In this document: one piece after another, positions 13,130-52,922 of the stretch
Layout of the letters: each line of letters begins with the position of its first letter
Numbering within the stretch: the stretch's first letter is position 1
Origin: an uncultured Clostridia bacterium
Lineage (GTDB): Bacteria; Bacillota; Clostridia; Oscillospirales; Acutalibacteraceae
Assembly (NCBI GenBank): GCA_947632335.1
Contig: CANROX010000003.1
Location: 1-64,000 of the forward strand
Reading direction: 5' to 3'
Length of the DNA: 64,000 bases
Program-made: the position numbers and the translations under genes
Notes under the pieces: generated by a model
What the model saw: the letters and a program-made list of their open reading frames with translations, nothing else
Database searches by the model: none
Told to the model about the DNA's origin: nothing

Positions 13130-13153
13130 GCAAAGGAAAAAAATTAGATTACA

Positions 13154-13197
13154 TGAAAAGTCACAACTGTTTCATTGAAACAAAGTTGTGACTTTTA
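13154..13197 (+). terminator. Rho-independent terminator
   Basis: AAAAGTCACAACT...AAGTTGTGACTTTT. Confidence 0.7.
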
Positions 13198-13382
13198 TTT
13201 TAATAATAAGGAACTGGCACAGAAACTTTTTACGCTAAAAATTATACCATTTGTGTATCTTATATTGACTACATTTATGGTAATTAATATAATTACAATG
13301 TTAAAAAATTTCTATACATAAAACTGTATTCGGCACAAAATTATTTAGTGCAGTTAATAGAAAGGTATAAAGAGGTAGTGTA

Positions 13383-14246: not shown

Positions 14247-14349
14247 ATTTTGAGAATATAAAAATTTTTAGAATTGTTAAAATTTTTGCTAAGAAAAATA
14301 ATTTATAGTCTTTATTTTAAGGAAAATAGAAACATAGGGTTGTGAGACT

Positions 14350-14841
14350 ATGAAAAAAGGGAAAAAACATTTATATGTTATTGGTTCAGCTATTATTGTA
14401 CTTACGGTTATTTTTGTATTAGTTATATATTCACTGTTGTGCAAAAGCAATATGAAGATGATTCCATTGATGGATAGCGTAAATCAAACATTCGGCTGGA
14501 CATATGAAAAATTAAATGATGGTGTTGTTACAAAGACTGAGGCTGAATTTAATGAAGAGTACGGAACTATAATAAAAGGAGGCCATGCTGACGCTGTAAA
14601 GATGACAAGGGTTATGACTCCTGTGGATATTGATGGTCCGGACATTGAAGTTACTATTATTAACCCTGAAACTTTAGGGGTAGAGATATTTGTTGATGGT
14701 GAGATATCCTATTCCAGCTTTGGCAGAGGCGAAAGAAATAAAGCAGGATATATGATAATTGATGAAAAAATTCTCCAAAACTTCCCTTTAGTGAAAGGGG
14801 AGGAGAAATTGTGCGTATTTCTTTGCCTGATGACTATGTAG
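14350..14841 (+). CDS. N-terminal part of membrane sensor kinase (TM plus extracellular jelly-roll-like domain); frame broken near 14811
   Basis: MKKGKKHLYVIGSAIIVLTVIFVLVIYS... then IIDEKILQNFPLVKGEEKL, after which the next frame continues the domain. Confidence 0.6.
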   Translation: MKKGKKHLYVIGSAIIVLTVIFVLVIYSLLCKSNMKMIPLMDSVNQTFGWTYEKLNDGVVTKTEAEFNEEYGTIIKGGHADAVKMTRVMTPVDIDGPDIEVTIINPETLGVEIFVDGEISYSSFGRGERNKAGYMIIDEKILQNFPLVKGEEKLCVFLCLMTM

Positions 14842-16283
14842 GGAAAACGGTTTCCGTTATTTCATACTATTCAAAAAAGGCTCAGATTATTTCACCTACA
14901 TATATTTGTTTAAACAGTTATGATACTGAAAACGCCCAGACAGCAGTTCACTCTGTTTTGCCTGTGGCTATAATGACGCTGTCTGCAATTCTTGCCATTC
15001 TTACAACTATAATTTTTGTTTTGGATATTTCAAACGGAAAGCCTAACTGGAGAATTTTGTTTATTACTTTCTTTTTTGTACTGCTATTTATCGATGAATC
15101 ATATATGTCGCTGCCGGGTACATACAGCATTTTAACAAAATATATGGATTTATCTTTCCTGGCATGGATTTATCCTGTTCCCCTTTTTCTGTATGTAGCG
15201 TCCTGTCTTACAGGCTGGAGGAAATATGTTCTTTCAGGACTCACAATAATATGGTTTATATATGAAGTGTCCCAAATATTCTGGAATACGGAGCTTGTAG
15301 AATACAGGCTTGCCGGCATAGGTGGATTGGAAGAGATTTTAGTCTTTTCTTCTACACTTGTGCTGGTGGTAATTGAGCTGTTATTGCGCAGAAAGAAAAA
15401 GGAAAAAATAAAGGTCAGCAAGGTATATGTTATAATTACCCTTATCGTAATTTTTTTACGGCTCTTATACGAATTGAAAATATGGTGGAACGGAGATATA
15501 TCCTATTTTCTTTCAAGTATGACATATGCTATTAATGATGGTTCATACACTTTAATTGTAGACATTATTTCCGAAATTTTTGCTATTACAGCGGTTATAA
15601 TTCTTATTATTGAATTTATTAAAAGAACATTGCATACCCACGAGTCCATAAGTGTACTTAAGGAACGGAACAGAATGTCAATGGAAAGCTATCACCGAAT
15701 GGTTGAGTCGGAAAATGCCACCAGTGCTGCCCGTCATGAGATGCGACATCATATTTTGGCTTTAAGCGGTATGATAAGAAACAAGAATATCAGCAGAGCC
15801 CAGGAGTATCTTGCATCACTTGAAGAGGAGCTGGACGAAATACCATGCGGAAGATACAGTCAGAATATGATGATAAATGTGCTGGCCGGTACTTATCTTG
15901 ACAGGGCCAAGGCCCACGGAGTAAAGGTGAGATACCGCTTTAATATTCCGAAAAGTATTTCTATTGCCGACAATGACCTTTGTGTTTTTATTACCAATAT
16001 GCTTGAAAATGCTGTCAAGGCCTGTGAAAAAGTTGAGGCAGACAAGGAAAAATATATTAATATTAATATTGGACTTAACGGTAATTTCCTGTTTATAGGC
16101 TGTGAAAACAGTTGCTGTGAGCAGGAGGATAAAAACAATGAAAAACGGCATAGTTTTGGCATTGAAAATATGGAGAAAATTGCAAAAAAATATAACGGTG
16201 TTCTTAAAGTTGAAAGGAAATCTTCATCGTTTTCCGTTATGAGTACCTTATGTCTTACAAAAAATTCAAACGAAACAGAGTGA
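14811..16283 (+). CDS. Membrane sensor histidine kinase (GHKL type), partner of a LytTR regulator
   Basis: RISLPDDYVGKTVSVISYYSK, multiple TM helices, AARHEMRHHILALSGMI, FITNMLENAVKACE, HSFGIENMEKIAKKYNG; GTG start with GGGGAGGAG SD. Confidence 0.8.
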   Translation: MRISLPDDYVGKTVSVISYYSKKAQIISPTYICLNSYDTENAQTAVHSVLPVAIMTLSAILAILTTIIFVLDISNGKPNWRILFITFFFVLLFIDESYMSLPGTYSILTKYMDLSFLAWIYPVPLFLYVASCLTGWRKYVLSGLTIIWFIYEVSQIFWNTELVEYRLAGIGGLEEILVFSSTLVLVVIELLLRRKKKEKIKVSKVYVIITLIVIFLRLLYELKIWWNGDISYFLSSMTYAINDGSYTLIVDIISEIFAITAVIILIIEFIKRTLHTHESISVLKERNRMSMESYHRMVESENATSAARHEMRHHILALSGMIRNKNISRAQEYLASLEEELDEIPCGRYSQNMMINVLAGTYLDRAKAHGVKVRYRFNIPKSISIADNDLCVFITNMLENAVKACEKVEADKEKYININIGLNGNFLFIGCENSCCEQEDKNNEKRHSFGIENMEKIAKKYNGVLKVERKSSSFSVMSTLCLTKNSNETE

Positions 16284-16295
16284 TATTTATAAATT

Positions 16296-16327
16296 AAAGC
16301 CGTACGCTTATTTGTCGTACGGCTTTC
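16296..16327. terminator. Bidirectional terminator
   Basis: AAAGCCGTACG-cttatttgt-CGTACGGCTTT. Confidence 0.75.
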
Positions 16328-16328
16328 T

Positions 16329-17048
16329 TTATATAAACATATTTTTTTTACCGAGATGCTCCATTAGTATGAGCTGGATTTTGTTATACATTGACTTACT
16401 AAGGGGAACAGACATTCCGTTTTCCAGATGTATGCTATGGCACTCTATTTTTGAAATGCAGTCCAAATTCACTAAATAACTTCTGTGCGGTCTGACAAAA
16501 CACATTGGAGGCAAATCCTGTTCTACCTGCTTTAGTGTACCGTGGCAGGTTTCCTTTTTTCCGTCTACCATATGTATGATAATATCGTGGCTAAAAATTT
16601 CAAAGCACAAAATGTTTGAAATATTAATGATAGACATACCTCTTGAGGTTTTAAGACTGATTGTTACAGGGTTGTTTTTATTTAAAAAACGCTGGAGTGC
16701 TGTTTCCAATTTGCTCAAATCTCTGGATTTAAGTATATAATGCAGTGGTTCAACATCATAACTGTCAACCGCATATTCCTCATATCCGGTAATGAATACA
16801 ATATCTGAATTATATTGCTCTTTGCGTAGAATTTTAGCAAGGTTTATCCCGTTTTCGTTCCCAAACTTAACATCCAGAAAAATTAAATCAAATTCTTCTC
16901 CGGATTTAAGTGAAGTTAAAAAAGAGTCGCTGCTATAAAAACATTTTAAACTGTACAATACTTCTTTTTTTAATAAAATATTTTTTAAGGCGTGCCCGAA
17001 ATCCTTGCAAAATTCGGCGTCGTCGTCACAAATAGCAAACTTGTACAT
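16329..17048 (-). CDS. LytTR-family response regulator
   Basis: Receiver domain FAICDDDAEFC...DLIFLDVKFG and C-terminal CFVRPHRSYLVNLDCISKIE. Confidence 0.9.
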   Translation of the reverse strand: MYKFAICDDDAEFCKDFGHALKNILLKKEVLYSLKCFYSSDSFLTSLKSGEEFDLIFLDVKFGNENGINLAKILRKEQYNSDIVFITGYEEYAVDSYDVEPLHYILKSRDLSKLETALQRFLNKNNPVTISLKTSRGMSIINISNILCFEIFSHDIIIHMVDGKKETCHGTLKQVEQDLPPMCFVRPHRSYLVNLDCISKIECHSIHLENGMSVPLSKSMYNKIQLILMEHLGKKNMFI

Positions 17049-17254
17049 ATGTTTCTACCTTTCTAAATCCTTTTATGATTATATCACAAAACAAAATGGC
17101 GCGCAACATAAGAGGAGTTTAAAATTTATGGCAGAGTTTAATTTTTACTGTTTGTTCATAAATTATTTTTTGTATTACTTATCTTTAATAAGCCGGGTAT
17201 ACCGTGAATTTAAAGTTAGTCAAGATATTAGAAAAAATTTTTTTAAAAATAGTG

Positions 17255-17283
17255 TTGACATTTCCGGAAAAAAATAATATAAT
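17255..17283 (+). promoter_or_regulatory. Sigma-A promoter of the feo operon
   Basis: TTGACA-N17-TATAAT. Confidence 0.85.
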
Positions 17284-17290
17284 GTATTCG

Positions 17291-17306
17291 GTTAGCTGAT
17301 ACTAAC
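17291..17306 (+). promoter_or_regulatory. Candidate metal-repressor operator 1
   Basis: GTTAGCTGATACTAAC inverted repeat at the predicted transcription start. Confidence 0.65.
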
Positions 17307-17325
17307 CAAATATTTTTGTGGGGAA

Positions 17326-17341
17326 GTTAGCTAATGCTAAT
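17326..17341 (+). promoter_or_regulatory. Candidate metal-repressor operator 2
   Basis: GTTAGCTAATGCTAAT, same motif as operator 1. Confidence 0.6.
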
Positions 17342-17393
17342 TTTAATTTCATAAATATAAATAAACAATCATATAGATTAACGAGGAAAGATT

Positions 17394-17606
17394 ATGTTAC
17401 CACTTACATTTGCAGATGTTGGGGAAAGCAACATTATAAAGAGAATAGGCGGAAAGCCGGAGGTGAAAAAGCACCTTGAAAATTTAGGATTTGTCGTTGG
17501 CGGGGAGGTCAAGGTAATCTCTATGGTTGGCGGCAATGTTATTGTCAATGTAAAGGAAACAAGGGTTGCTATCAGCGAAGAAATGGCAAAAAAGATTATG
17601 ATTTAA
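17394..17606 (+). CDS. feoA: Ferrous iron transport protein A
   Basis: 70 aa SH3-like FeoA: VKKHLENLGFVVGGEVKVISMVGGNVIVNVKETRVAISEEMAKKI. Confidence 0.9.
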   Translation: MLPLTFADVGESNIIKRIGGKPEVKKHLENLGFVVGGEVKVISMVGGNVIVNVKETRVAISEEMAKKIMI

Positions 17607-17632
17607 AAATATAATTTAGATGGAGGGAAGAT

Positions 17633-17854
17633 ATGAAAACTCTTAGAGATGTAAAAATAGGTGAAACCGTAAAAGTAAAAAAACTTAATGGCGAGGGAGC
17701 TATAAAGCGCAGAATTATGGATATGGGTATTACAAAAGGCGTTGATATTTATATTCGTAAGGTTGCACCCCTGGGGGACCCTGTGGAGATAACTGTAAGA
17801 GGTTATGAGCTTTCGCTAAGAAAGGCTGATGCAGAAATGATTGAGGTGGAATAA
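17633..17854 (+). CDS. feoA: Ferrous iron transport protein A (second copy)
   Basis: 73 aa; GEGAIKRRIMDMGITKGVDIYIRKVAPLGDPVEITVRGYELSLRKADAEMI. Confidence 0.92.
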   Translation: MKTLRDVKIGETVKVKKLNGEGAIKRRIMDMGITKGVDIYIRKVAPLGDPVEITVRGYELSLRKADAEMIEVE

Positions 17855-17900
17855 TCTGCCTTTAAAGAACGGGCGAAAGCCCTGTTTTTTAAGGTTTAAA

Positions 17901-17916
17901 GTTAGCTGATGCTTAC
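17901..17916 (+). promoter_or_regulatory. Third copy of the feo operator motif, between feoA2 and feoB
   Basis: GTTAGCTGATGCTTAC. Confidence 0.5.
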
Positions 17917-17945
17917 TGTGATTATAAAGAAAGAGAGGAATTGTT

Positions 17946-20441
17946 ATGAATTTGCGTATTGCCCTTGCAGGCAACCCTAACTGTGGTAAAACCACCCTGT
18001 TTAACGCCCTGACAGGTTCAAACCAGTTTGTGGGTAACTGGCCGGGTGTAACTGTTGAGAAAAAAGAGGGTAAGTTAAAGAGGAACAAGGATATCACCAT
18101 TACAGACCTACCCGGTATATATTCACTTTCCCCATATACTTTGGAAGAAGTTGTTGCAAGAAATTATTTAATAGGGGAAAGACCTGACGCTATTCTTAAT
18201 ATTGTTGACGGTACAAACCTTGAGAGAAACCTTTACCTTACAACACAGCTTATTGAACTGGGTATTCCGGTTGTTGTGGCTATCAATATGATTGATATTG
18301 TCAACAAAAACGGTGACAATATCAATATTGAGCAGCTTTCAAGTGAACTGGGCTGTAAGGTGGTGGAAATTTCCGCTCTGAAAAATAAGGGAATTGATGA
18401 GGCTGTTGAAGTGGCCGTTGAGGTTGCCAAAAACAAGGCGTCTGTTCCTGCCCATAGATTTTCGGGGGAGGTTGAGCATACTATTGCCCACATTGAGGAG
18501 GCTGCTATTCACGAAATGCCCGAGGAACAGCAGAGATGGTATGCCATTAAAATTTTTGAAAGGGACGAAAAAGCCATTGAAAAGCTGAATATTCCCGAAA
18601 AGGTATTGAAACACATTGAACAGGATATTCAGAAAACAGAAAATAAGTTTGATGATGATTCTGAAAGTATTATTACAAACGAAAGATACATATATATTGG
18701 TGAAATTATTAAGACCTGTTACAAGAAAAAGAACAGGGGTAAACTTTCCACCTCGGACAAAATTGACAGGGTGGTAACAAACAGATTTGCGGCTCTTCCG
18801 ATTTTTGCTGTAATTATGTTCCTTGTTTACTACATAGCAATGTCAACGGTGGGTGCTTGGTGTACGGACTGGACAAATGACAACCTGTTTGGAGATGGTT
18901 TTCATCTATTCGGAATAGGTCAAAGCAGTTATGAAGAAGCGGCGGACAATTATGCCAATGCAATAGATGCAGTTGACGCATTTGTGGGTATTAAAACCAA
19001 CGATGAGGACGAAGTGGACGGGGATAAGACCCTAAAGGCTATGAACAGCTTTGAGCCGACTGATAAAGTGGTTACATACACAAAAACTGATGAAGAAACC
19101 CTTATCGACTACAATATTAATGTTTACTACGATAGCATACCTGCCGGCGCCGACCCGGAAGAAACCTGCGGTATGACATATGTTGAGGCAAAGACTTTCT
19201 TTGAAGAAAAGGGTTTTACGGAGCCTGACCCAACAGACTACGGCGTGTTTGTTCCCAGTATTCCGGATATGATTTCAGGCGGACTTCAGTCCATTGGCTG
19301 TGCAGACTGGTTACATGACCTTGTAGTTGACGGCATTGTGGCAGGTGTTGGCGCAGTGCTTGGTTTTGTTCCCCAGATGTTCGTACTGTTTATTCTACTT
19401 GCTATTCTTGAGTCCTGCGGTTATATGGCTCGTATTGCATTTGTAATGGACAGAATTTTCCGAAAGTTCGGTTTGTCCGGCAAGTCTTTTATTCCAATGC
19501 TGGTTGGTATGGGATGTGGCGTACCCGGTATTATGGCATCACGAACCATAGAAAATGAGCGTGACCGCCGTATGACAATTATGACAACAACATTTATTCC
19601 CTGCGGAGCCAAGACTCCCTTTATTGCCATGATGGCAGGGGCTCTCTTTGCAGGAAATAGTACAGCGGCGTCGTTTGTTTCCGTTGGGGCTTACTTCCTC
19701 GGTGTTTTTGCAATTATCGTTTCCGGTATTATGCTTAAAAAGACAAGGCTGTTTGCAGGAGACCCTGCACCGTTTGTTATGGAACTTCCCGCATATCATC
19801 TCCCGACAGTAGGTAATGTCCTGCGTTCAATGTGGGAGAGAGGTTGGTCCTTTATTAAGAAAGCGGGTACAATTATTCTTCTTTCTACTATTCTTGTTTG
19901 GTTTACATCTTTCTTCGGTTGGGTTGACGGCTCATTCCAAATGCTTTCCGAAGAACAGATTGACAACAGTATTCTTGCATATATAGGAAGTGCAATAAGT
20001 TGGATTTTTGCTCCCCTAGGCTGGGGTAACTGGCAGGCGGCGGTTGCCTCTATTACAGGTCTTGTTGCCAAGGAAAATATTGTCGGCACAATGGGTATCC
20101 TTTACGGCGGTGCGGTAAATATCGGTGAACACTTTACAGTAATCAGCGGTATTTCATTCCTAATCTTTAATCTCCTGTGCGCTCCGTGTTTTGCGGCAAT
20201 CGGTGCTATGAAGAGGGAGATGAACAATGGAAAGTGGACATTATTTGCGGTGGCATATCAGTGTGCATTTGCCTATGCAGTTGCAATTATTGTAAATCAG
20301 ATTGGGGGACTTTTTATTGGTGAATTTAATATTATTGCCCTGATTTTTGCATTTATTGTACTTGCATTTATGATTTATATGTTGGTTAGACCTTATAAAG
20401 AGGTAAACAGGCTTACAAGAAAGCTTTCCTTTGAAAAATAA
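17946..20441 (+). CDS. feoB: Ferrous iron transport protein B
   Basis: GNPNCGKTTLFNALTGSNQFVGNWPGVTVEKKEG, FVPQMFVLFILLAILESCGYMARIAFVMDRIFRKFGLSGKSFIPML. Confidence 0.97.
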   Translation: MNLRIALAGNPNCGKTTLFNALTGSNQFVGNWPGVTVEKKEGKLKRNKDITITDLPGIYSLSPYTLEEVVARNYLIGERPDAILNIVDGTNLERNLYLTTQLIELGIPVVVAINMIDIVNKNGDNINIEQLSSELGCKVVEISALKNKGIDEAVEVAVEVAKNKASVPAHRFSGEVEHTIAHIEEAAIHEMPEEQQRWYAIKIFERDEKAIEKLNIPEKVLKHIEQDIQKTENKFDDDSESIITNERYIYIGEIIKTCYKKKNRGKLSTSDKIDRVVTNRFAALPIFAVIMFLVYYIAMSTVGAWCTDWTNDNLFGDGFHLFGIGQSSYEEAADNYANAIDAVDAFVGIKTNDEDEVDGDKTLKAMNSFEPTDKVVTYTKTDEETLIDYNINVYYDSIPAGADPEETCGMTYVEAKTFFEEKGFTEPDPTDYGVFVPSIPDMISGGLQSIGCADWLHDLVVDGIVAGVGAVLGFVPQMFVLFILLAILESCGYMARIAFVMDRIFRKFGLSGKSFIPMLVGMGCGVPGIMASRTIENERDRRMTIMTTTFIPCGAKTPFIAMMAGALFAGNSTAASFVSVGAYFLGVFAIIVSGIMLKKTRLFAGDPAPFVMELPAYHLPTVGNVLRSMWERGWSFIKKAGTIILLSTILVWFTSFFGWVDGSFQMLSEEQIDNSILAYIGSAISWIFAPLGWGNWQAAVASITGLVAKENIVGTMGILYGGAVNIGEHFTVISGISFLIFNLLCAPCFAAIGAMKREMNNGKWTLFAVAYQCAFAYAVAIIVNQIGGLFIGEFNIIALIFAFIVLAFMIYMLVRPYKEVNRLTRKLSFEK

Positions 20442-40878: not shown

Positions 40879-40984
40879 TCAATAAATGAATGTTATGGGG
40901 CAGTGTGTTTTGCACTGCCTTTTTTCTTGGTGTTGAATTTTATATTTATATGTGATACAATAGTGTAAAATTAAATAAAAAACA

Positions 40985-41165
40985 CAAATCAAGGGAAATA
41001 GGGTGAAATTCCTATGCAACTGCCATTACTGTGATAACCGTGTGTTTAAGCCAGATTACTTGAAGTGTTTTTGGTTTTAAGGCTTTTGGGTAAGAAAAGT
41101 AACCGTTATAATCTGCAAAATAACTGCATTCTTATGCAGGTGTTCTGCGGGATTTTGTGTTGTGT
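40985..41165 (+). ncRNA. Cobalamin riboswitch
   Basis: GGGAAATAGGGTGAAATTCCTATGCAACTGCCATTACTGTGA ... AAGCCAGATTAC (B12-box-like), then terminator and a B12-type transport operon. Confidence 0.85.
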
Positions 41166-41168
41166 TTT

Positions 41169-41196
41169 ACTCCTTGCCAAAAGCAGGGAGTTTTTT
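41169..41196 (+). terminator. Riboswitch expression-platform terminator
   Basis: ACTCCTTGC-CAAAA-GCAGGGAGT then TTTTTT, upstream of the ATG at 41213. Confidence 0.8.
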
Positions 41197-41212
41197 ATTT
41201 TGGGTGATTTAT

Positions 41213-42130
41213 ATGAAAAAGACAACCTTACTGTTGGTAGTTATTATGCTTATATCCTGTTTTACAGGTTCTTATGTGGAGGCTGCCGAACAATATGTCA
41301 CAGTAAGTTTTGAAGACTACAGCCTTAGGGCAAATGAAAACTGCGATTTTCCAAAGCCCCTTGGAAAAATAATTGGAAAGACAAAAGTAAAAATTCAGGA
41401 TAGGGATACTATAGCCACCGTAACTCTGAGATTGCTGTCACAGCTGAATATTGACGCCTATTATAGTGGTAATGCCGAAATGGGCGGCGGATTTTATCTT
41501 GAATCCATTGATAACTTTACTGCGGAAAATGGGAAAAAGGTTAGTGACGGCTATGGATTGGGTGAGTTTTCTGCCGGTGAAAATAGCGGGTGGACAATAA
41601 GTTATAACGGTATTTTAATAGATAAGGCGGCATCAGAATATTACATAAAAAACGGTGACAGTTTAATTTGGAAATATACCGCCTTGGCTTTTACTGATGT
41701 TGTAGAAAATAATTCTTCTGTAACCGCCCCTACACAGGGAACTGTAATTTCAAAAAATAATGCTTTGTCATCGTCACGAATTAGAACAAACAATAGAAAA
41801 AATAGAACTTATGCTACATCAAAGGCTATTAACAGTAAAATCCAAAGTACCTCTTCTTCCCGTAGTAATATAAATAATATAGAGGCTGAAAGTAAGGCGG
41901 AAAACAACAGGACAGTTGAAAGTACAACAGTTATCCGTGATAGGGAGAATATAACTGAAACTTCGGCTATGGGAGAAAATAAAATTGAAAAAACCACAGG
42001 TACAAAGGAAAGTGGCAATAACAGTAACAAGATATTGTATATAATTTTTATAATTGCAGTACTAACAATCTTAGGGATTATAGTATGCATAATAATTTTA
42101 TATAGAGATAGAAAAAATAAGGAGGAATAA
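41213..42130 (+). CDS. Membrane-anchored surface protein with DUF4430-like (transcobalamin beta-domain-like) domain
   Basis: Signal peptide; DTIATVTLRLLSQLNIDAYYSG...GGFYLESIDNFTAENG...NSGWTISYNGILIDKAASEYYIKNGDSLIWKYT; C-terminal TM anchor. Confidence 0.75.
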   Translation: MKKTTLLLVVIMLISCFTGSYVEAAEQYVTVSFEDYSLRANENCDFPKPLGKIIGKTKVKIQDRDTIATVTLRLLSQLNIDAYYSGNAEMGGGFYLESIDNFTAENGKKVSDGYGLGEFSAGENSGWTISYNGILIDKAASEYYIKNGDSLIWKYTALAFTDVVENNSSVTAPTQGTVISKNNALSSSRIRTNNRKNRTYATSKAINSKIQSTSSSRSNINNIEAESKAENNRTVESTTVIRDRENITETSAMGENKIEKTTGTKESGNNSNKILYIIFIIAVLTILGIIVCIIILYRDRKNKEE

Positions 42131-42132
42131 AA

Positions 42133-43257
42133 ATGAAAAAAGTATTTTTAGTTTTGCTTGCATTGATGATGACTGTATCAGGCACTTTATATGCAGGTGC
42201 AGAAGAGGTGGATAAGGCCTATGACGGTTATGTCTATCTTACAGTAGAAAGAAACACAATCGGACAGGGACTTGCCCTTGCCCCAACCAAGGTAGGTTAC
42301 TTTGAGGGGGAAAGCCTTGCGGATATTTCCGAAAGAGGTTTAGGAGATATGAGCGTATTTACCGGGGATATGAGTTCATACTATATTGAAACTATTGTTG
42401 ACGGCGGCGAGCCACAGGGCTGGACAATCAGCGATGTACCTACAGACATTATGAATGCCCTTGGAGGAGAGGATTATTTTGATGAAAGACAGGTGCCTAC
42501 AGAGCTTTCTGCAGATGACTATACAGCCTATACAGGTTGGATGCTTACGGTGGACAACTACAGCATTAATGATTATGCAGGCAGCGTTAAGTATGGTGAG
42601 GATACATCGGACGGTTTGCACTTTAAAAACGGCAGTACGGTAAGACTTCAGTACACAGCATATGGCTGGGGTGAAGATATTGGCTGTGGATTTGGATATA
42701 TGCCCTTTGAAACCACAAACACTTTCCCGGACAGAAGTGAGCTTATTGCAAAGATTGGTGAAATCAACGCTTATGGCACATCACAAAACTATGGCAGTGC
42801 ATATACAGAGGCTGTAAAACTATTAAACACATGGGAAATTACAGAAGATGAAATTTCAAAGGCCCTTGCTGATATTAAGATTGCTGAGAGTGGACATATT
42901 TACGAGTATAAATCAAACGGGGACGGTACACACACTATTACCTGTAAGGACTGTGGTATTACAGAAACTGCTGATTGTTCTTTTGACAGTAACAATGTTT
43001 GTGAAAAATGTAAATGCCACAAAACAGTTTCCATTTATGGCGATGTAAACGGCGACGGCGAAGTTGATATTCAGGATGCAACAGCGGTGCAGAAGTACAC
43101 CATAAGAATGATAGACCTTACAGACGAACAAAAGGAAACTGTACTTGTTGACGGAGCAACAAAGGTTAATATTAAGATTGTTACACGAATCCAAAAGTAT
43201 GTAAATAATGCTTTAAAAGAAACAAATCTGGGTACACAGTTTGTAAAATATAGTTAG
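42133..43257 (+). CDS. Secreted DUF4430-like protein with C-terminal dockerin
   Basis: Signal peptide; GWMLTVDNYSINDYAGSVKY...FKNGSTVRLQYTAYG; dockerin GDVNGDGEVDIQDATAVQKYTIRMIDLTDEQKETVLVDGATKVNIKIVTRIQKYVNNAL. Confidence 0.78.
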   Translation: MKKVFLVLLALMMTVSGTLYAGAEEVDKAYDGYVYLTVERNTIGQGLALAPTKVGYFEGESLADISERGLGDMSVFTGDMSSYYIETIVDGGEPQGWTISDVPTDIMNALGGEDYFDERQVPTELSADDYTAYTGWMLTVDNYSINDYAGSVKYGEDTSDGLHFKNGSTVRLQYTAYGWGEDIGCGFGYMPFETTNTFPDRSELIAKIGEINAYGTSQNYGSAYTEAVKLLNTWEITEDEISKALADIKIAESGHIYEYKSNGDGTHTITCKDCGITETADCSFDSNNVCEKCKCHKTVSIYGDVNGDGEVDIQDATAVQKYTIRMIDLTDEQKETVLVDGATKVNIKIVTRIQKYVNNALKETNLGTQFVKYS

Positions 43258-43326
43258 GTTATTTAAAAATTTTCTGACATCCACATTTGTGGGTGTCAGT
43301 TATCTAAACTGCTATGGAGGATTATT

Positions 43327-43590
43327 GTGACGGAGAATTTATCCAAAGAAAGATGTATTCTGCTTTTGCAGGAAAAGTATAAAGAAAAAGGTAAACTGCC
43401 CCAAAAGTCCGACTTTACAGATTACGAAGTTATGATGATAAAATCACACTTGGGCCCATGGCCAAGGGCTCTTGAGGCCTCCGGAATAAAGGAGCCCAGA
43501 AGTCAAAGCAAGATTATAAAAAGGCAGGAAAAACGGGAAAGAGCAAAAAAGCGAAAACTGGATTTTAAGAATAAAAGCGATATATTATGA
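43327..43590 (+). CDS. Small basic protein resembling the HNH/homing-endonuclease-associated repeat
   Basis: GKLPQKSDFTDYEVMMIKSHLGPWPRALEASGIKEP; GTG start; ATGA overlap with next gene. Confidence 0.5.
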   Translation: MTENLSKERCILLLQEKYKEKGKLPQKSDFTDYEVMMIKSHLGPWPRALEASGIKEPRSQSKIIKRQEKRERAKKRKLDFKNKSDIL

Positions 43591-45104
43591 CTGATATTTC
43601 TATAAAAGAGAGCAGAAGATTATTGAGCATAGTCCTTGTTGTCATTGTTTCTGTTCTTATTATTTGTTTAAGCACAGGGAATACCTCAACATTAAATACA
43701 AAGACCGACGCTGTATATGCTGAAACCGGAAATATTCTGTACAACGCAGGAGTTCCAAAGCTATCTTCCACAGGCGGAGAATGGGTTATTATTGGTATGT
43801 CAAGAGGCGGATATAACACAGGGGACAGCTATTACAAAGATTATTATGAAAATGTTGTTAATAAATTAACAGAAAAGAATGGCGTCCTTTCAAAAAGGAA
43901 AAATACAGAATATTCAAGAGTTATTATATCCCTAACCTCCATTGGAAAAGATGTAAGAAATGTTGGGGGATACAATCTTCTTGAAAACCTTGCTGATTTT
44001 GATAAGGTAAAATTACAGGGCATAAACGGTCCTATTTGGGCACTGATTGCCCTGGACTGCGGAGGTTACGAAATACCCAAAACAGAGGGTTTGTCACAGA
44101 CAACAAGGGAAAAACTTATTGAGTATATATTGAATTCCGAAATAAAGACAGGAGGCTGGGCCCTTGGCGGAAGCGTGCCGGAGGCTGATGTTACCTCAAT
44201 GGCTATAACCAGTCTTGCAAAGTACTATACATATAGTGAAGATGTAAGGCAGGCAGTGGACAGAGGAGTGGAAACCCTCTCAAAAATTCAAAATCAAAAG
44301 GGTTGTTTTACTTACAACAAGGTTGAAAGTTGTGAAAGTGTTGCACAGGCTGTTACCTGTCTTTCCACACTGGGAATTGACGCAGATAAAGACAAAAAAT
44401 TTATTAAAAACTCCAAAAGTCTTATTGATAGTCTTTTGGATTTTTATATTGAAGGCATAGGCTTTGCCCATACAAAAGGGGGTGTGTTTTCCCAGCTTGC
44501 AACGGAGCAGGCATACTATAGCATAGTGGCGTATAACAGGTTTATCCAAGGGAAAACCTCTCTTTTTGATATGACAGATATTACTGCCCCGGAAGTTACC
44601 CTACCTACCGTATTTACAATACCCACAGTTCCCAATGTAACAACAGCAGGAACAACTGTATCCTCTACTGCAAAAACAAGAGAAAGCGTTTTGGAGCATT
44701 CCGATACAGCAGAAACAAAAGTAAATATTTCAGAAGAAACACTGCCTGAAAGCAGTGAAAATAAAACTATAGAAAAAAAGAGCGTTTCAACTGCAGGGGG
44801 AAATACAAAAAATACAGGTATAGAAAGTATAAATGTTATAAAGGCAAACAATATTACGGAAAGCACTTCTAAAGCAACAGACGCCAGTACTGCTGAAAAA
44901 AATAGTACAGTAAAAGACGGTTTACATTATACTAAAGCAGCAACAACACAGCCAACAACAGCCACCTCAGAAATTACCAAAGAAAAACCGGAAACAAATG
45001 ATAATAATATTTTAACTATTGTGGCAGGCAGTATTACGGGAATAATGGTTATTATTCTTGCAGTTCTCATTACCATAATAATTAAGAGGAAAATAAAGAA
45101 ATGA
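43587..45104 (+). CDS. Membrane-anchored alpha/alpha-toroid (prenyltransferase/squalene-cyclase-repeat-like) surface protein
   Basis: LQGINGPIWALIALDCGGY...TGGWALGGSVPEADVTSMAITSLAKY...QNQKGCFTYNKVESCESVAQAVTCLSTLGI; Ser/Thr-rich stalk and C-terminal TM. Confidence 0.75.
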   Translation: MTDISIKESRRLLSIVLVVIVSVLIICLSTGNTSTLNTKTDAVYAETGNILYNAGVPKLSSTGGEWVIIGMSRGGYNTGDSYYKDYYENVVNKLTEKNGVLSKRKNTEYSRVIISLTSIGKDVRNVGGYNLLENLADFDKVKLQGINGPIWALIALDCGGYEIPKTEGLSQTTREKLIEYILNSEIKTGGWALGGSVPEADVTSMAITSLAKYYTYSEDVRQAVDRGVETLSKIQNQKGCFTYNKVESCESVAQAVTCLSTLGIDADKDKKFIKNSKSLIDSLLDFYIEGIGFAHTKGGVFSQLATEQAYYSIVAYNRFIQGKTSLFDMTDITAPEVTLPTVFTIPTVPNVTTAGTTVSSTAKTRESVLEHSDTAETKVNISEETLPESSENKTIEKKSVSTAGGNTKNTGIESINVIKANNITESTSKATDASTAEKNSTVKDGLHYTKAATTQPTTATSEITKEKPETNDNNILTIVAGSITGIMVIILAVLITIIIKRKIKK

Positions 45105-46279
45105 AAATTTTTAGGAATACGCTTACACTAATTTTTGCGGTGTTAATTTTTTCTGCAAGTTTTACTGTTACATATGCCAAAAGCAAAACATACACAACAG
45201 AAGAATTGGAAAAAGTAGCAGGGGATATTGTAGATTGGGAGAAATCCCAATTCGATTTTAATTCCAAAGAAAACCTTTTCAGCGGTAAATTTCTGCCCCT
45301 TGCAGGCAGTACGGAGGGTGACTGGCTTTGCATAGCCTTAAACAGACTTGAGGTTAAAGATGATTACAAAACTTATCTTAACAGCTTAAAGGATTATGTG
45401 GAAGAAAAGTATAGAACAGAGTCAGGACTAAGCAGATACAAGGCTACAGAATGGCATAGGATTATTCTTGCAGTAGTCGCCTGCGGCGGAAACCCTGAAC
45501 ACTTTGGCAAGGACAAAAACGGCAAAGATATTAATCTACTGTCCGACGGAATTTATAACAGGGAACAGAAATTAAATTTACAGGGAATTAACGGGGTTGT
45601 ATGGGGGCTTATCGCCCTTGACAGTGATTCATTTAAAGTTCCCACTGCATCAAAAATTACAAGGGAAAAAATTATTGCTGATATACTGAAAAATCAGAAT
45701 GCCGACGGGGGCTGGTCAATTGGCGGAGGAAAATCCGATATTGATATGACAGCCATGGCACTACAGGCTATTGGAAAATATAAGGAAAGAAAAAATGTAA
45801 GTAAAGCCATTGAAAAATCCCTTTCCTTTATTTCAGTTAATCAGAAAAATTCCGGCGGTTTTAAAAGTAAGGGCGTTGAAAATGCGGAAAGTATCTGTCA
45901 GGTAATTATTGCCCTTAATACCCTAAAAATAGATACAAACAGCGATGAAAGATTTATTAAAAACGGCAGAACTTTGATAAGTGCCCTGATGGATTACAAA
46001 TGCAGTAAGGGTGGATTTTCCCATATAAAAAACGGCGAACCCGACCTTATCGTCAACCAGCAGGTTTTACTTGCCCTTGCCTCTCAAATAAGAGGGGAGA
46101 AAGGCCGGACTGCCCTCTTTGATTTTAGTGATAACAAGGTGAAATTTTTAGGGTCAGACAGGGACGGCAACATATCAACTATTTTTATCATATCATTAAT
46201 AATCGGTATAGGTTTAGTAACTGCCATAAGTATTATAGTTCGTAAAAAGAAAAATAAAACTAAGGATTTACATAATTGA
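45101..46279 (+). CDS. Membrane-anchored alpha/alpha-toroid surface protein, paralogue of the preceding gene
   Basis: LQGINGVVWGLIALDSDSF...DGGWSIGGGKSDIDMTAMALQAIGKY...KNSGGFKSKGVENAESICQVIIALNTLKI; C-terminal TM. Confidence 0.77.
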   Translation: MKIFRNTLTLIFAVLIFSASFTVTYAKSKTYTTEELEKVAGDIVDWEKSQFDFNSKENLFSGKFLPLAGSTEGDWLCIALNRLEVKDDYKTYLNSLKDYVEEKYRTESGLSRYKATEWHRIILAVVACGGNPEHFGKDKNGKDINLLSDGIYNREQKLNLQGINGVVWGLIALDSDSFKVPTASKITREKIIADILKNQNADGGWSIGGGKSDIDMTAMALQAIGKYKERKNVSKAIEKSLSFISVNQKNSGGFKSKGVENAESICQVIIALNTLKIDTNSDERFIKNGRTLISALMDYKCSKGGFSHIKNGEPDLIVNQQVLLALASQIRGEKGRTALFDFSDNKVKFLGSDRDGNISTIFIISLIIGIGLVTAISIIVRKKKNKTKDLHN

Positions 46280-46827
46280 AAAAGGATATAATTGCAATTT
46301 TTGCTGTAATAATTGCTGTTGTTATTATAATAATAGGTACAGATTTTCAGACAGTAGACCAATATTATACTGACCATATTGAAGATATAAAACAGGACAG
46401 CAAAACTGTTACAATGACAATCGAATGTAAAACAATTCTTAAAAATAAAGAGAAATTGGACAAAAGCCTTGAAAAGTATGTTCCTGATAATGGATTTATT
46501 CTTAAAGACACAAAATTTGTTCTTAATAATGATGATACGGCCTTTGACATTCTTGACAGGGTTACAAGGTATAAGAAAATACAGATGGAATACTATGGTG
46601 CAGACCTTAACAGATATGGTACAGTATACATAGAAGGTATAAATTATTTGTACGAATATTCCTGTGGAGAATTATCCGGCTGGGTGTATTCCGTAAACGG
46701 TCAATATCCCCAGTGTGGCTGTTCACAGTATAAACTAAAGGACGGCGACCATATTGTGTGGTCATACACCTGTGACTTGGGCAGAGATGTTGGCTGTACT
46801 GTTGGGGGAGGGAATAATGGAAAATAG
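46276..46827 (+). CDS. Membrane-anchored DUF4430-like protein
   Basis: N-terminal TM; DDTAFDILDRVTRYKKIQMEYYG...YGTVYIEGINYLYEYSCGELSGWVYSVNGQYPQCGCSQYKLKDGDHIVWSYTCDLGRDVG; TTG start, TTGA overlap. Confidence 0.82.
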   Translation: MKKDIIAIFAVIIAVVIIIIGTDFQTVDQYYTDHIEDIKQDSKTVTMTIECKTILKNKEKLDKSLEKYVPDNGFILKDTKFVLNNDDTAFDILDRVTRYKKIQMEYYGADLNRYGTVYIEGINYLYEYSCGELSGWVYSVNGQYPQCGCSQYKLKDGDHIVWSYTCDLGRDVGCTVGGGNNGK

Positions 46828-47713
46828 GAAAATATCAGGTTTTAACACTCTGCACCCGGCAGTACTTTTTACATATTTTGTATCTGTGGTTATAGTTGCA
46901 ATGTTTTGCACAAATCCCGTTATGCTGTTTCTTGCTCTGATAGGAGGAGTCAGCTTTTTTGGGGTGATGAAAGGTGCAAAGCTGTTTTTTCAAGATTTAT
47001 GCTTTTATATTTTAATGGCGGTTTTTATAGCAATAATAAATCCCCTTTTCAGCCACAACGGTGTAACCCCTCTGTTTTTTATGAATGGTAATCCTGTCAC
47101 TTTAGAGGCAATACTATATGGCGTTGATATAGCCCTTATGCTTGTCGGTGTAATATATTGGTGTAAGTGTTACAGTGAAGTTATGACGACAGATAAATTT
47201 CTTTTTCTTTTTGGCAAGGCCGTTCCAAAGCTATCTCTGGTGCTTTCAGCTGCTCTTAGGTTTATTCCTCTTTTTAGAAGAAAGCTGAAAGAAATACGCA
47301 GTGTGCAAAGTTCCCTGGGGTTGTATGAAAAAAAAGGAATGATAAACAGGGTTACAGCGGAATTAAAGGTTTTTTCTTCTCTTATCACCTGGTCTCTTGA
47401 AAATTCTGTAGACACAGGAGCGTCAATGAAAGCAAGGGGATATGGCCTAAAGGGGCGAACTCATTTTTCCGTATTTACTTTTAGAAAAAGGGATTTAGGG
47501 TATTTAATTTGTATTATTGTACTGGTGGGCATAGTGATTTTAGGTATGTCTATGGGTATAAGTGATTTCAAGTTTTATCCGGAAATTTCGGAATTTAACT
47601 TTGGTTTAAAACAGATTGCCGTATATATTTCTTTTGGCATACTTTCATTTATACCATTTTTAAGTGAGTTGTGGGAGGTGATTATGTGGAAATACTCAGC
47701 ATCAAAAATTTAA
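46817..47713 (+). CDS. ecfT: ECF transporter T component
   Basis: FNTLHPAVLFTYFVSVVIVAMF; C-terminal SSLITWSLENSVDTGASMKARGYGLKGRTHF. Confidence 0.87.
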   Translation: MENRKISGFNTLHPAVLFTYFVSVVIVAMFCTNPVMLFLALIGGVSFFGVMKGAKLFFQDLCFYILMAVFIAIINPLFSHNGVTPLFFMNGNPVTLEAILYGVDIALMLVGVIYWCKCYSEVMTTDKFLFLFGKAVPKLSLVLSAALRFIPLFRRKLKEIRSVQSSLGLYEKKGMINRVTAELKVFSSLITWSLENSVDTGASMKARGYGLKGRTHFSVFTFRKRDLGYLICIIVLVGIVILGMSMGISDFKFYPEISEFNFGLKQIAVYISFGILSFIPFLSELWEVIMWKYSASKI

Positions 47714-49350
47714 GTTTTACATATCCTATGCTGAATACCAGGGCTCTTGATAGTGTTACTATGACAGTAGAACAAGGGGATTTTGTAGTACTGTGCGGAC
47801 AGTCCGGCAGCGGAAAAACTACATTGCTTAAAATGTTTAAAAGGGAAATTACGCCTAATGGCAAATGCAGCGGTGAGGTTTTCTTTAAGGGAGAACCCAT
47901 AAAGGATATTGATGACAGAACCTCTGCAAAGAAAATCGGCTTTGTGTTCCAGAAACCCGAACAGCAAATTGTTACAGACAAAGTGTGGCACGAACTTGCC
48001 TTTGGACTTGAAAGCCTTGGCTATGACTCCAAATATATAAGGCTTAGAGTAGGGGAAATGGCAAACTATTTTGGTATTTCCTCACTTTTTCACAGAAAAA
48101 CAGAAAATCTTTCGGGGGGACAAAAACAGCTGTTAAATCTTGCATCAGTTATGGCAATGTCCCCTGATGTACTTATTTTAGACGAACCGACTTCTCAGCT
48201 TGACCCAATAAGTGCGGGAGATTTTATCGCCACTCTTAAAAGGCTTAACACAGAGCTGGGACTTACAATTATATTAACTGAACATAGATTGCAGGATGTT
48301 TTTCCAATAGCGGACAAGGTTGCTGTACTGGATAATGGAAAGCTGATTGCATATGGCAAGCCCAGAGAAATCTGTAGGGAACTGAAAAAACACCCCGTTT
48401 CAGCAGGCTTTCCCTCAGCGGTGCAAATTTATAACAGTACCGATATTTCTACCGATTGCCCTCTTACCGTAAGAGAGGGCAGGGACTTTATAAATAATAA
48501 TTTCTCAAAAAGAAAAATAGAAATAAGGGACACAGTGCCGAAAACAGAAATTGCAGTGGAACTAAAGGACGCATTTTTTCGTTACGAAAAGGAGGGTCAG
48601 GATATACTTGCAGGAACCAGGCTAAAGGTTTATAAGGGGGAACATTTTTCAATATTAGGCGGGAACGGTTCGGGAAAAACAACAACCCTGAAAATTCTTT
48701 CAGGTATTCTAAAACCTTATAGGGGAAGTGTTTTTATTAACGGTCAGAAGATGAACAGGAAACCCCTTACAGAATATAGCCGAATGGGTATAGCGATGCT
48801 CCCTCAAAATCCCGAAACAGTTTTTATAAAACCAAAAATAATTGAAGATTATATTGAACTTTGCAAAATAAAGGGAGTAGAGAATAGGGATAAAAAAATT
48901 GCTGAAATAACGGAAAGTCTTGGGATAAAGGGCCTTATGGACAAACACCCATACGACCTTAGCGGCGGAGAAGTCCAAAGGTGTGCATTGGGCAAAATTC
49001 TTTTGGCAAATCCCAGTATCATTCTTCTTGACGAGCCTACAAAGGGTATAGATGCCTATGGTAAAATATCCCTTGCTAAAATGCTCAACAAAATAAAATC
49101 TCAAGGCAGGACAATAATTACGGTAACGCATGATGTTGAATTTTCCGCCATTGTTTCTGACAGATGCGCTCTTTTCTTTGACGGCGATGTTTTGTCAAAC
49201 TCTGTACCACAGGAATTTTTTTCAACAAACAATTTTTATACAACCTCAGTCAGCAGAATATGCCGGGATAGATTTATAAATGCAGTAACAGTTGATGACG
49301 CTGTTAGTCTTATTAAAGAGGGTGGACAATATGAAAATAAAAATAATTAA
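47686..49350 (+). CDS. ECF transporter ATPase, two ABC domains fused in one chain
   Basis: Walker [11 protein letters not shown] and GGNGSGKTTT; signatures NLSGGQKQLLNLASV and DLSGGEVQRCALG; upstream in-frame GTG at 47671. Confidence 0.9.
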   Translation: MEILSIKNLSFTYPMLNTRALDSVTMTVEQGDFVVLCGQSGSGKTTLLKMFKREITPNGKCSGEVFFKGEPIKDIDDRTSAKKIGFVFQKPEQQIVTDKVWHELAFGLESLGYDSKYIRLRVGEMANYFGISSLFHRKTENLSGGQKQLLNLASVMAMSPDVLILDEPTSQLDPISAGDFIATLKRLNTELGLTIILTEHRLQDVFPIADKVAVLDNGKLIAYGKPREICRELKKHPVSAGFPSAVQIYNSTDISTDCPLTVREGRDFINNNFSKRKIEIRDTVPKTEIAVELKDAFFRYEKEGQDILAGTRLKVYKGEHFSILGGNGSGKTTTLKILSGILKPYRGSVFINGQKMNRKPLTEYSRMGIAMLPQNPETVFIKPKIIEDYIELCKIKGVENRDKKIAEITESLGIKGLMDKHPYDLSGGEVQRCALGKILLANPSIILLDEPTKGIDAYGKISLAKMLNKIKSQGRTIITVTHDVEFSAIVSDRCALFFDGDVLSNSVPQEFFSTNNFYTTSVSRICRDRFINAVTVDDAVSLIKEGGQYENKNN

Positions 49351-50008
49351 ACAGATTTTGCTGTGGGTCATTATTCCCCTTATTATAATTTTTGGGGTGG
49401 TAATTTTCTATGACAGAGCCTATGCCTGGATTTCACTGTGTGTAGCGATTTCCGGTTGTATTCCTTTTTTTCTCACCTATGAAAAAAGGCAGGGCAACAC
49501 CATAAAGCTGGTTATCCTTGCAGTGCTTATTGCTTTGTCTGTGGCAGGAAGATTTATATTTTCTTTCTTGCCTCACTTTAAGCCTGTTACTGCCATTGTG
49601 GTTCTGACAGGAATATATATGGGGTATGAGGCAGGGTTTGTCTGCGGAGCATTTACCGCTTTGATTTCAAATTTTATTTTCGGACAGGGTCCTTGGACAC
49701 CTTTTCAAATGTTTATTTGGGGATTAATCGGGTGTTTGGCAGGATTGCTAAATAAATTTCTTTTAAAGAATTTTGTTTTGCTGTTGGTATTTGGTGCAGT
49801 TGCAGGAGTTTTGTTCTCCTGCTTTATGGATATTTGGACAACCTTTTGGTATGACGGAACATTCAATATGGGGAGATACCTTGCAAACATAATAACAGCC
49901 CTTCCTGTAACAGTTTCCTACGCCGTATCAAATTTAATATTTCTTCTGATTTTGGCTAAACCATTTGGTAAAAAGCTGGAAAGACTGAAAATTAAATATG
50001 GAGTATAA
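49331..50008 (+). CDS. ECF transporter S component (candidate cobalamin substrate-binding subunit)
   Basis: Multi-TM; ALSVAGRFIFSFLPHFKPVTAIVVLTGIYMGYEAGFVCGAFTALISNFIFGQGPWTPFQM. Confidence 0.82.
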   Translation: MKIKIIKQILLWVIIPLIIIFGVVIFYDRAYAWISLCVAISGCIPFFLTYEKRQGNTIKLVILAVLIALSVAGRFIFSFLPHFKPVTAIVVLTGIYMGYEAGFVCGAFTALISNFIFGQGPWTPFQMFIWGLIGCLAGLLNKFLLKNFVLLLVFGAVAGVLFSCFMDIWTTFWYDGTFNMGRYLANIITALPVTVSYAVSNLIFLLILAKPFGKKLERLKIKYGV

Positions 50009-50108: not shown

Positions 50109-50402
50109 ATGGACTGTTGCAGTCACAAGAAAACTATAAGAAGTGAAGAAGAACACAAAAAGCTTATAAACCGACTTAACAGGATAGAAGGTCAGATAAG
50201 GGGTATAAAAAATATGGTGGAAAAGGATGCCTACTGCAACGATATACTTATACAGGTTTCCGCCGTCAATTCAGCCCTTAATTCTTTTAACAAGGAACTT
50301 CTTTCACGGCATATAAAAACCTGTGTGGCAAGGGATATTCGTGAGGGAAAAGATGAAACTATTGATGAGCTTGTTACCACACTTCAAAAACTGATGAAAT
50401 GA
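50109..50402 (+). CDS. csoR: Copper-sensing repressor, CsoR family
   Basis: LINRLNRIEGQIRGIKNMVEKDAYCNDILIQVSAVNSALNSFNKELLSRHIKTCV. Confidence 0.92.
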   Translation: MDCCSHKKTIRSEEEHKKLINRLNRIEGQIRGIKNMVEKDAYCNDILIQVSAVNSALNSFNKELLSRHIKTCVARDIREGKDETIDELVTTLQKLMK

Positions 50403-50417
50403 TAAAGGGGTGATATT

Positions 50418-52922
50418 TTGGAGCAATACAGCATAACAGGAATGAGCTGTGCCGCCTGTGTTTCAAGAGTTGAAAAGGCAGTAAGTAAGGTGGAGGGTGT
50501 AACCTCCTGTTCAGTAAGCCTGCTTACAAACTCAATGGGCGTGGAGGGTAATGCGAAAAGTCAGGATATTATTAATGCAGTTGAAAGAGCCGGTTATGGC
50601 GCAGAACTTAAAAATAATTCTGTGAAAGAAAATAAATCCTCTGATGAGGATATTTTAAAGGACAGGGAAACACCCATACTTAAAAAAAGATTTTTTGCCT
50701 CTACTATATTTTTGGCAGTGCTTATGTATATCTCAATGGGCCATATGATGCTGGGTTTCCCGCTACCCGCCTTTTTAGGGGAAAATCATATTGCTATGGG
50801 ACTTGCACAACTTCTGCTTACAGCAATAATTATGGTAATTAATCAGAAGTTCTTTATAAACGGCTTTAAAGGTTTAATCCATAGGTCACCTAATATGGAC
50901 ACACTTGTGGCCCTTGGAGCAGGAGCGGCATTTGTGTACAGCACCTATGCACTTTTTGCAATGACCGAGGCACAGATAAGTGGTGATATGGCAGGGGTAA
51001 TGTCTTATATGGACGAATTTTATTTTGAATCTTCTGCAATGATACTTACCCTTATTACTGTAGGAAAATTGTTGGAATCCATTTCAAAGGGCAGGACAAC
51101 AGACGCACTCAAAAACCTTATGAGACTTTCTCCAAAGACTGCAAATATAGTCAGAAACGGCAAGGAAGAAACTGTTTCCGTTGAAAAGGTAGTACAGGGA
51201 GATATTTTTGCCGTTCGTCCCGGGGAGAATATTCCTGTTGACGGAATTGTTATAGAGGGTACCTCCTCTGTAAATGAATCGGCATTAACAGGGGAAAGCA
51301 TACCTGTAGATAAGGAAATTGGTGACAATGTTTCCACAGGTACTGTGAACACATCCGGTTTTATAAAGTGTAAGGCAACAAGGGTTGGACAGGACACAGT
51401 GCTTTCCCAGATTATTAAAATGGTAAGGGACGCCTCTGCAACAAAAGCACCTGTGGCAAAGGCAGCAGATAAGGTTTCCGGCATATTTGTGCCTGTGGTA
51501 ATTGCTATTTCCCTTGTGACAATCGCTCTGTGGCTTGTGTTTGGTTCAGGTGTAGGTTATGCTTTGGCAAGGGGGATTTCCGTACTTGTAATAAGCTGTC
51601 CCTGTGCCTTGGGACTTGCAACCCCTGTGGCAATAATGGTGGGAAACGGAGTTGGGGCAAAAAAAGGTATTCTCTTTAAAACGGCACAGTCATTGGAAAT
51701 TGCAGGAAAGTCAGATTTTGTGCTGCTTGACAAGACAGGCACAATTACTAAAGGTGAGCCTACCGTTACAGATATAATTCCAACAGAGAACTATACCAAG
51801 GATGAACTATTATCAATAGCCTGCTCTTTGGAAGAAAAAAGCGAACATCCGTTGTCAAAGGCTATAATTCTGGAGGGGAATAATGAAAATATTTCTTACA
51901 CAGAGGCAACTGATTTTAGTGCACAGGTAGGTAAAGGAGTAAAGGCAAAATTAAATGGAAAAATGGTAACAGGGGGCAGTTATAAATATATTTCCACGGT
52001 GTTACAGGTAGATGAGGATTTTCTTGATATAGGAGAAAATTTTGCAAATCAGGGGAAAACACCCCTTTACTTTGTATATGACAATAACCTTGCGGGCATA
52101 ATTGCCGTAGCAGATACAATAAAAGAGGAAAGTCCCTCTGCTATAAAGGATTTGCAGAATATGGGGCTAAAAGTTATTATGGTAACAGGAGATAACGAGA
52201 AAACTGCAAATGCAATCGGAAGACAGGCAGGGGTAGATAAGGTTGTTGCCGGACTTATGCCGGAGGGTAAAGCGGAAATTGTTAAAAATCTAAAAAGCAA
52301 AGGAAAGGTTATTATGGTTGGTGACGGTATAAACGACGCACCGGCCCTTGCAACAGCAGATACAGGCATAGCCATTGGCGCAGGTACAGATATAGCCATA
52401 GACTCTGCCGATGTTGTGTTAATGAAAAGTAAGCTATCTGATGTTACCGCCGCCATTAGGCTTAGCAGAAGAACCCTAAAAAATATTTATGAAAACCTGT
52501 TTTGGGCGTTTATCTATAACATAATAGGTATTCCCCTCGCCGCGGGTGTTTGGATACCCCTTTTTGGCTGGAGTCTTAGTCCAATGTTTGGAGCGGCAGC
52601 AATGAGCCTTTCCAGCTTTTGTGTGATGACAAATGCCCTTAGGCTTAATTTTATTGATATTCACAGCAATAAAAGAGATAAAAAGCATAAAAGTAAAATA
52701 AATAAAAAGGAGGGAGAAACTTTGGAAAAGACAATTAAAATCAAGGGTATGATGTGTTCTCACTGTGAAAATACCGTAAAGACAGCCCTGGAGGAAATTC
52801 CCCAGGTAACCAACGCAGACGTAAGCCATGTAAGCGGAACAGCCGTTGTAACACTGTCATCAGATGTTGCAGACGATATTCTGAAAAAGGCTGTAACAGA
52901 CAAAGGCTACGAAGTACTCTGA
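50418..52922 (+). CDS. copA: Copper-translocating P-type ATPase with N- and C-terminal HMA domains
   Basis: [50 protein letters not shown]-terminal [15 protein letters not shown]. Confidence 0.95.
52722..52922 (+). CDS. Candidate internally initiated CopZ-like copper chaperone nested in copA
   Basis: In-frame TTG preceded by AAAAGGAGGGAG SD; product [66 protein letters not shown]. Confidence 0.5.

Follow-up and report, generated by a model that had tools for sequence, protein, structure and literature searches.

Why would a bacterium encode, beside a single transporter, several secreted and membrane-anchored proteins built from an alpha/alpha toroid or a DUF4430 (SLBB) domain, the two domain types that animal intrinsic factor and transcobalamin combine? 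The question is raised by a nine-gene operon (+ strand, 41207-50008) in the window, the 64,000-nucleotide stretch of contig CANROX010000003.1 (assembly GCA_947632335.1) analysed here, from an uncultured Clostridia bacterium of the Acutalibacteraceae. It is highly probable from the evidence that a Gram-positive bacterium auxotrophic for B12 uses this operon for corrinoid uptake, with intrinsic-factor-like capture and import by an energy-coupling factor (ECF) transporter. Capture and uptake of B12 had been proposed in an original prediction, and this reading is supported by a CbrT-like S component, the needs of the host, riboswitches in relatives, natural fusions and the transcobalamin/intrinsic factor fold. 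The central idea is a known prediction of 2007. The parts of Burroughs et al. (PMC1796856) that concern these operons describe the SLBB superfamily and bacterial proteins in which toroid and SLBB domains are fused in either order, along with paralogous SLBB proteins per operon, CbiO/CbiQ neighbours and missing B12 synthesis genes, and propose both a role in B12 scavenging and a transfer to animals. A literature search, with most subscription journals outside its scope, found no experimental follow-up of that prediction.

Every gene named in the original prediction is present on the + strand (Table 1), and the 4-nucleotide overlaps that it reported are real, between the PF18780 (HNH_repeat) gene and Tor1 (43587-43590), Tor1 and Tor2 (45101-45104), and Tor2 and S3 (46276-46279). 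EcfT, the fused double EcfA and an ECF-type S component are confirmed by family matches, as are the two toroids, Tor2 directly and Tor1 as its paralogue (34% identity, 1.8e-45). Three DUF4430-like surface proteins had been claimed, of which S1 and S3 exceed the Pfam cut-off, while S2 alone is too divergent for the Pfam model and joins them by homology to the DUF4430 domains of relatives. Membrane helices, placed by hydropathy only, are C-terminal in S1, Tor1 and Tor2, N-terminal in S3 and absent from S2, and, judging from signal peptides and anchors, all five surface proteins are predicted to sit outside the membrane.

The probable cargo is indicated by the S component, whose only convincing sequence match in the PDB is ECF-CbrT (6FNP; 1.8e-7, residues 58-225 against 9-177), CbrT being a demonstrated S component for cobalamin and cobinamide (PMC5997447). 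The host genome (1.78 Mb, 99.5% complete) encodes a B12-dependent MetH and the corrinoid adenosyltransferase BtuR/CobA, and neither CbiC, the single marker of ring synthesis used, nor a FecCD/BtuC permease nor a PduO-type adenosyltransferase was found in it. Because MetH and BtuR/CobA are present while CbiC and a BtuC-type permease are absent, the operon is likely to be the corrinoid importer of this gut-type host, which is apparently unable to make the B12 ring and should need imported corrinoid. Family names would also allow a non-corrinoid substrate such as cobalt or riboflavin (PF07155, the family of the S component, is broad, and EcfT falls in CbiQ), but this is very improbable given that CbrT is the only solved S component matched, that the ring-synthesis marker that would need cobalt is absent, and that the domain architecture is intrinsic-factor-like and accompanied by cobalamin riboswitches. 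A variant of corrinoid uptake, rather than its opposite, keeps the same capture system and assigns it another corrinoid or a precursor (cobinamide, pseudocobalamin or other cobamides). In its favour, CbrT binds cobinamide as well as cobalamin (PMC5997447), the beta domain of human transcobalamin also binds cobinamide (PMC5599065), and with ring synthesis absent by the CbiC marker any corrinoid could be useful; sequence cannot separate cobalamin from other corrinoids, and the variant is entertained as a minority possibility.

Corrinoid uptake through a two-domain capture device draws further support from natural fusions. Eight relatives (L117, L118, L112, L083, L032, L033, L037 and L109) carry toroid and DUF4430 in one chain, ordered as toroid, linker, membrane helix, short basic loop, second membrane helix and DUF4430, and these chains lie upstream of EcfT in 8/8 loci, directly so in seven. 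The window has the same order, with a stop and the overlapping TTG start of S3 replacing the basic loop between the two membrane helices, so that Tor2 and S3 are two halves of a chain made whole in other species; their ectodomains should both lie at the outer face, probably next to each other. The reverse domain order is fused in other relatives (e.g., L034). The idea that S2 always goes with Tor1 and S3 with Tor2 was considered and dropped, as Tor1-type toroids also precede S3-type proteins (L030, L031); the Tor2/S3 pairing is backed by the eight fusions.

Among 80 genomes of the family searched with Tor2, a toroid was found in 17, the window's own included, of which 15 have an adjoining DUF4430 gene and 11 also EcfT and EcfAA; the single sampled congener gave no Tor2 match. 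A scan of named genomes for the DUF4430 motif returned at least 573 related places, and the best 80, mostly from Clostridia and Bacilli, were inspected. In these best 80 loci, from other Firmicutes, a toroid was present in 72, EcfT in 73, EcfAA in 71 and a CbrT-like S component in 63, the DUF4430 count being uninformative in a set chosen through DUF4430 and several loci being cut by contig ends. The tallies of 15/17 above, and of 14/26 and 13/15 below, were combined by hand from several searches. The intrinsic-factor-like domains had been described as disassembled; they do occupy separate chains, but such chains are widespread in bacteria and not exceptional.

Riboswitch control, also part of the original prediction, is clearest in the relatives, where an above-threshold cobalamin riboswitch (52-124 bits) precedes the operon on its own strand in 14 of the 26 loci scanned. 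In the window, the claimed terminator is present at 41169-41191 (to 41200 in Table 1), and the leader's best Rfam match is to the adenosylcobalamin (AdoCbl) model RF01482, which scores 30.9 bits where the cut-off is 50 (E = 7.6e-4). The pattern GGTGAAATTCC..ACTGTGA..AAGCCAG, the ordered core boxes at 41002-41054, has a single occurrence in the 64 kb and none in 100 shuffles, and RNA folding of 40965-41205 gives z = -2.8. RF00174 found no match in the host's own genome, so the riboswitch evidence consists of the RF01482 match below cut-off, the box pattern and the relatives, from which the leader is likely, but not certain, to be a divergent cobalamin riboswitch.

At the level of structure, the fused L117 chain was modelled with AlphaFold2 using 61 related sequences, and its predicted local distance difference test score (pLDDT) was mostly >90 in both domains. 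When this model was compared by Foldseek with 350,542 PDB chains, transcobalamin, intrinsic factor and haptocorrin structures filled ranks 1-15 (E = 2.7e-7 to 1.2e-5), and the isolated human transcobalamin beta domain aligned to it with a template modelling (TM) score of 0.74 by target length. The overall two-domain fold is thus seen in the model of a natural fusion, not in the window's own chains, of which Tor2 was modelled with a mean pLDDT of 92 and a predicted TM score of 0.86. As the DUF4430 profiles A2 and A5 found no related solved structure by sequence, the link to transcobalamin and intrinsic factor is one of fold.

Several observations weigh against an intrinsic-factor-like capture operon. 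The domains of the ligand-free L117 model are placed unlike those of the closed human form (root-mean-square deviation over both domains, 13-20 Å), and as a prediction the model supports the parts and not the grip. Of the families proposed for checking, PF14478 was found in S1 and S3 and PF00432 in Tor2, but PF01122 in none of the window proteins or three natural fusions. No riboswitch model reaches its Rfam gathering score in the window, and among the family genomes with a toroid, DUF4430 is accompanied by no visible ECF genes in four, and two show neither. Further, Tor2 alone behaves as a generic toroid, with prenyltransferase beta subunits as its best matches and transcobalamin at rank 15, and toroid sequence profiles favour squalene-hopene cyclase. 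That toroids taken singly best match squalene-hopene cyclase and farnesyltransferase beta would suit secreted terpene cyclases, prenyltransferases or sugar-acting enzymes that lie beside an ECF transporter by chance. This is hardly credible in view of their extracellular topology by hydropathy, their fusion to DUF4430 and their riboswitch-ECF context; once both domains are present, transcobalamin and intrinsic factor outrank the cyclases. The terpene-cyclase reading itself was rejected on the absence of the class II cyclase DXDD motif, the fourth position being I, M, L or V in 54/55 sequences. On the evidence of the models, it is the pair of toroid and DUF4430 that is diagnostic, not the toroid alone.

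The 'small basic protein' of the original prediction is present and now has an identity, as an 87-residue member of PF18780 in which no nuclease domain was found. A homologue search made without reference to the operon found six PF18780 matches in the 80 family genomes (window included), 6/6 of them in DUF4430 or ECF operons of the window's kind. Class-wide, there were nine further matches, of which six adjoin DUF4430, toroid or ECF genes and a seventh (L143) precedes apparent cobT, cobS, cobU and cobC genes, identified by eye, which places 13/15 of these unbiased homologues in B12-type operons. In 5/9 such loci scanned, the PF18780 gene closely follows a cobalamin riboswitch. A literature search on PF18780 or DUF4430 found nothing relevant, and a regulatory role in binding nucleic acids is offered as a guess. 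Across the loci, PF18780 genes were seen in operons of B12 capture or synthesis, often as the first gene after the riboswitch (window 43327-43590, L026, L033, L128-L130, L141-L145, L148 and L149).

A further feature, overlooked in the original prediction, is a dockerin in S2 (PF00404, 25.4 bits against a cut-off of 22.9) spanning about 43036-43170, the first repeat of which, DVNGDGEVDIQD, is intact by eye and the second degenerate. The host's own genome has one cohesin match over the cut-off and three weak ones, and S2 may be cohesin-bound via its dockerin. Tentatively, PF18780 could be a partner, not described before, that is dedicated to bacterial corrinoid operons and perhaps regulates by binding nucleic acids; together with a capture layer mountable on cohesin scaffolds via dockerins, it would make a multi-part surface machine for harvesting B12, not a transporter with one binding protein; this is doubtful enough to be put forward as a suggestion. 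These dockerin and cohesin observations cover the window's S2 and L124-L127, and in L034 (6741-9389, - strand) a single DUF4430-toroid chain is followed by cohesin and dockerin matches just under the Pfam cut-off.

For the working of the operon, human precedent is instructive. The alpha and beta domains of human transcobalamin, expressed separately, assemble only with cobalamin, and ligand-dependent domain assembly is cited for intrinsic factor too (PMC5599065); because the human domains join only with cobalamin, a two-chain clamp would by analogy be physically reasonable. At low levels of coenzyme B12, the riboswitch in the leader would allow transcription to continue beyond the terminator. 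Membrane-tethered toroid and DUF4430 domains, as fold, fusions and human precedent suggest, would then close on a corrinoid in the manner of intrinsic factor or transcobalamin, with Tor2 and S3 as the membrane-proximal pair and S1, S2 and Tor1 as further capture proteins. Released to the CbrT-like S component, the corrinoid would be imported by EcfT-EcfAA', after which BtuR/CobA would adenosylate it or MetH would use it.

BtuG of the Bacteroidetes is a surface B12-binding protein that works with outer-membrane BtuB systems. The Bacteroidetes BtuH proteins (PMC8941943) likewise bind B12 at the surface as accessories to a transporter, but they are different proteins and theirs are outer-membrane BtuB systems. 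The animal intrinsic factor, transcobalamin and haptocorrin family shares with the window a toroid and a beta-grasp domain with a proposed two-domain grip. It differs in that the window has separate membrane-anchored chains (a single chain in eight relatives), no PF01122 match and 10-13% identity, and in that the next partner is a transporter where that of the animal proteins is an endocytic receptor. The ECF-CbrT system of Lactobacillus delbrueckii is comparable in its homologous S component and in B12 auxotrophy without BtuCDF; there, however, cbrT sits in nrdJ-cbrS-cbrT-pduO (PMC5997447), whereas in the window the S component shares its operon with an EcfT and a fused EcfAA' of its own and with the surface capture proteins.

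The closest likeness is to the operons of Burroughs et al. (PMC1796856), as portrayed in the parts cited above, which also have secreted or anchored DUF4430/SLBB domains (of the transcobalamin C-terminal clade in the 2007 account) and toroid domains, on separate chains or fused in either order, in one operon with several paralogues, a CbiO-like ATPase and a CbiQ-like protein, in a host without B12 synthesis genes, as judged here by the one marker CbiC. New beyond those parts of the 2007 account, which do not name an S component, riboswitch, dockerin or PF18780 protein, are the CbrT-like S component, riboswitch control, the dockerin, the tie of PF18780 to B12 operons and the Tor2/S3 split between two membrane helices. 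The 2007 prediction is thereby made directly testable, in the form that Gram-positive bacteria possess ancestral or related forms of intrinsic factor and catch B12 with them for import by an ECF transporter. Nature supplies both split and fused versions, which could serve directly as constructs in experiments that follow how two domains close over B12 at a membrane. As many Firmicutes, gut species included, carry the system, it bears on the competition between microbes and host for B12.

Table 1. Features of the operon and its leader, with their positions in the window.
Feature	Position	Strand	Basis
Sigma-70-like promoter, TTGAAT-17-TACAAT, TG before -10	40933..40961	+	Consensus scan
Likely divergent AdoCbl-type cobalamin riboswitch aptamer	40967..41107	+	RF01482 sub-threshold match, core boxes, RNA folding, relatives
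Intrinsic terminator of leader, 9-bp stem and T-run tail	41169..41200	+	
S1: signal peptide, DUF4430 domain, S/N-rich stalk, C-terminal membrane helix	41207..42130	+	PF14478 2e-8; hydropathy
S2: secreted, divergent DUF4430-like domain, C-terminal type I dockerin	42133..43257	+	PF00404; homology to relatives' DUF4430
Basic PF18780 (HNH_repeat) microprotein, 87 aa	43327..43590	+	2.9e-9
Tor1: alpha/alpha toroid, N-terminal signal/anchor, C-terminal membrane helix	43587..45104	+	Tor2 paralogue; toroid alignment; hydropathy
Tor2: signal peptide, alpha/alpha toroid, C-terminal membrane helix, basic tail	45101..46279	+	PF00432 1.5e-6
S3: N-terminal membrane helix, DUF4430 domain; TTG start overlaps Tor2 stop	46276..46827	+	PF14478 4.8e-17
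EcfT (CbiQ-like); start by eye, open reading frame opens 46754	46817..47713	+	PF02361 2.1e-6
Fused ATPases EcfA-EcfA'	47671..49350	+	TIGR04520 1.4e-104, two ABC_tran domains
CbrT-like S component; start by eye, open reading frame opens 49292	49328..50008	+	PF07155 7.1e-10, PF12822 2.4e-7, PDB 6FNP

The gene upstream of the operon, by eye a glutamate dehydrogenase, has its own terminator (40897-40921) ahead of the operon promoter. The region directly 3' of the operon (50109-52922) encodes two proteins recognised by eye, a small CsoR-like regulator and a P-type ATPase of the copper type, apparently as a separate unit. Locus L102 encodes, shortly after the operon but on the other strand (12732-18302, - strand), a surface protein of 1857 residues that combines three stretches of DUF4430 with one toroid and three S-layer homology domains.

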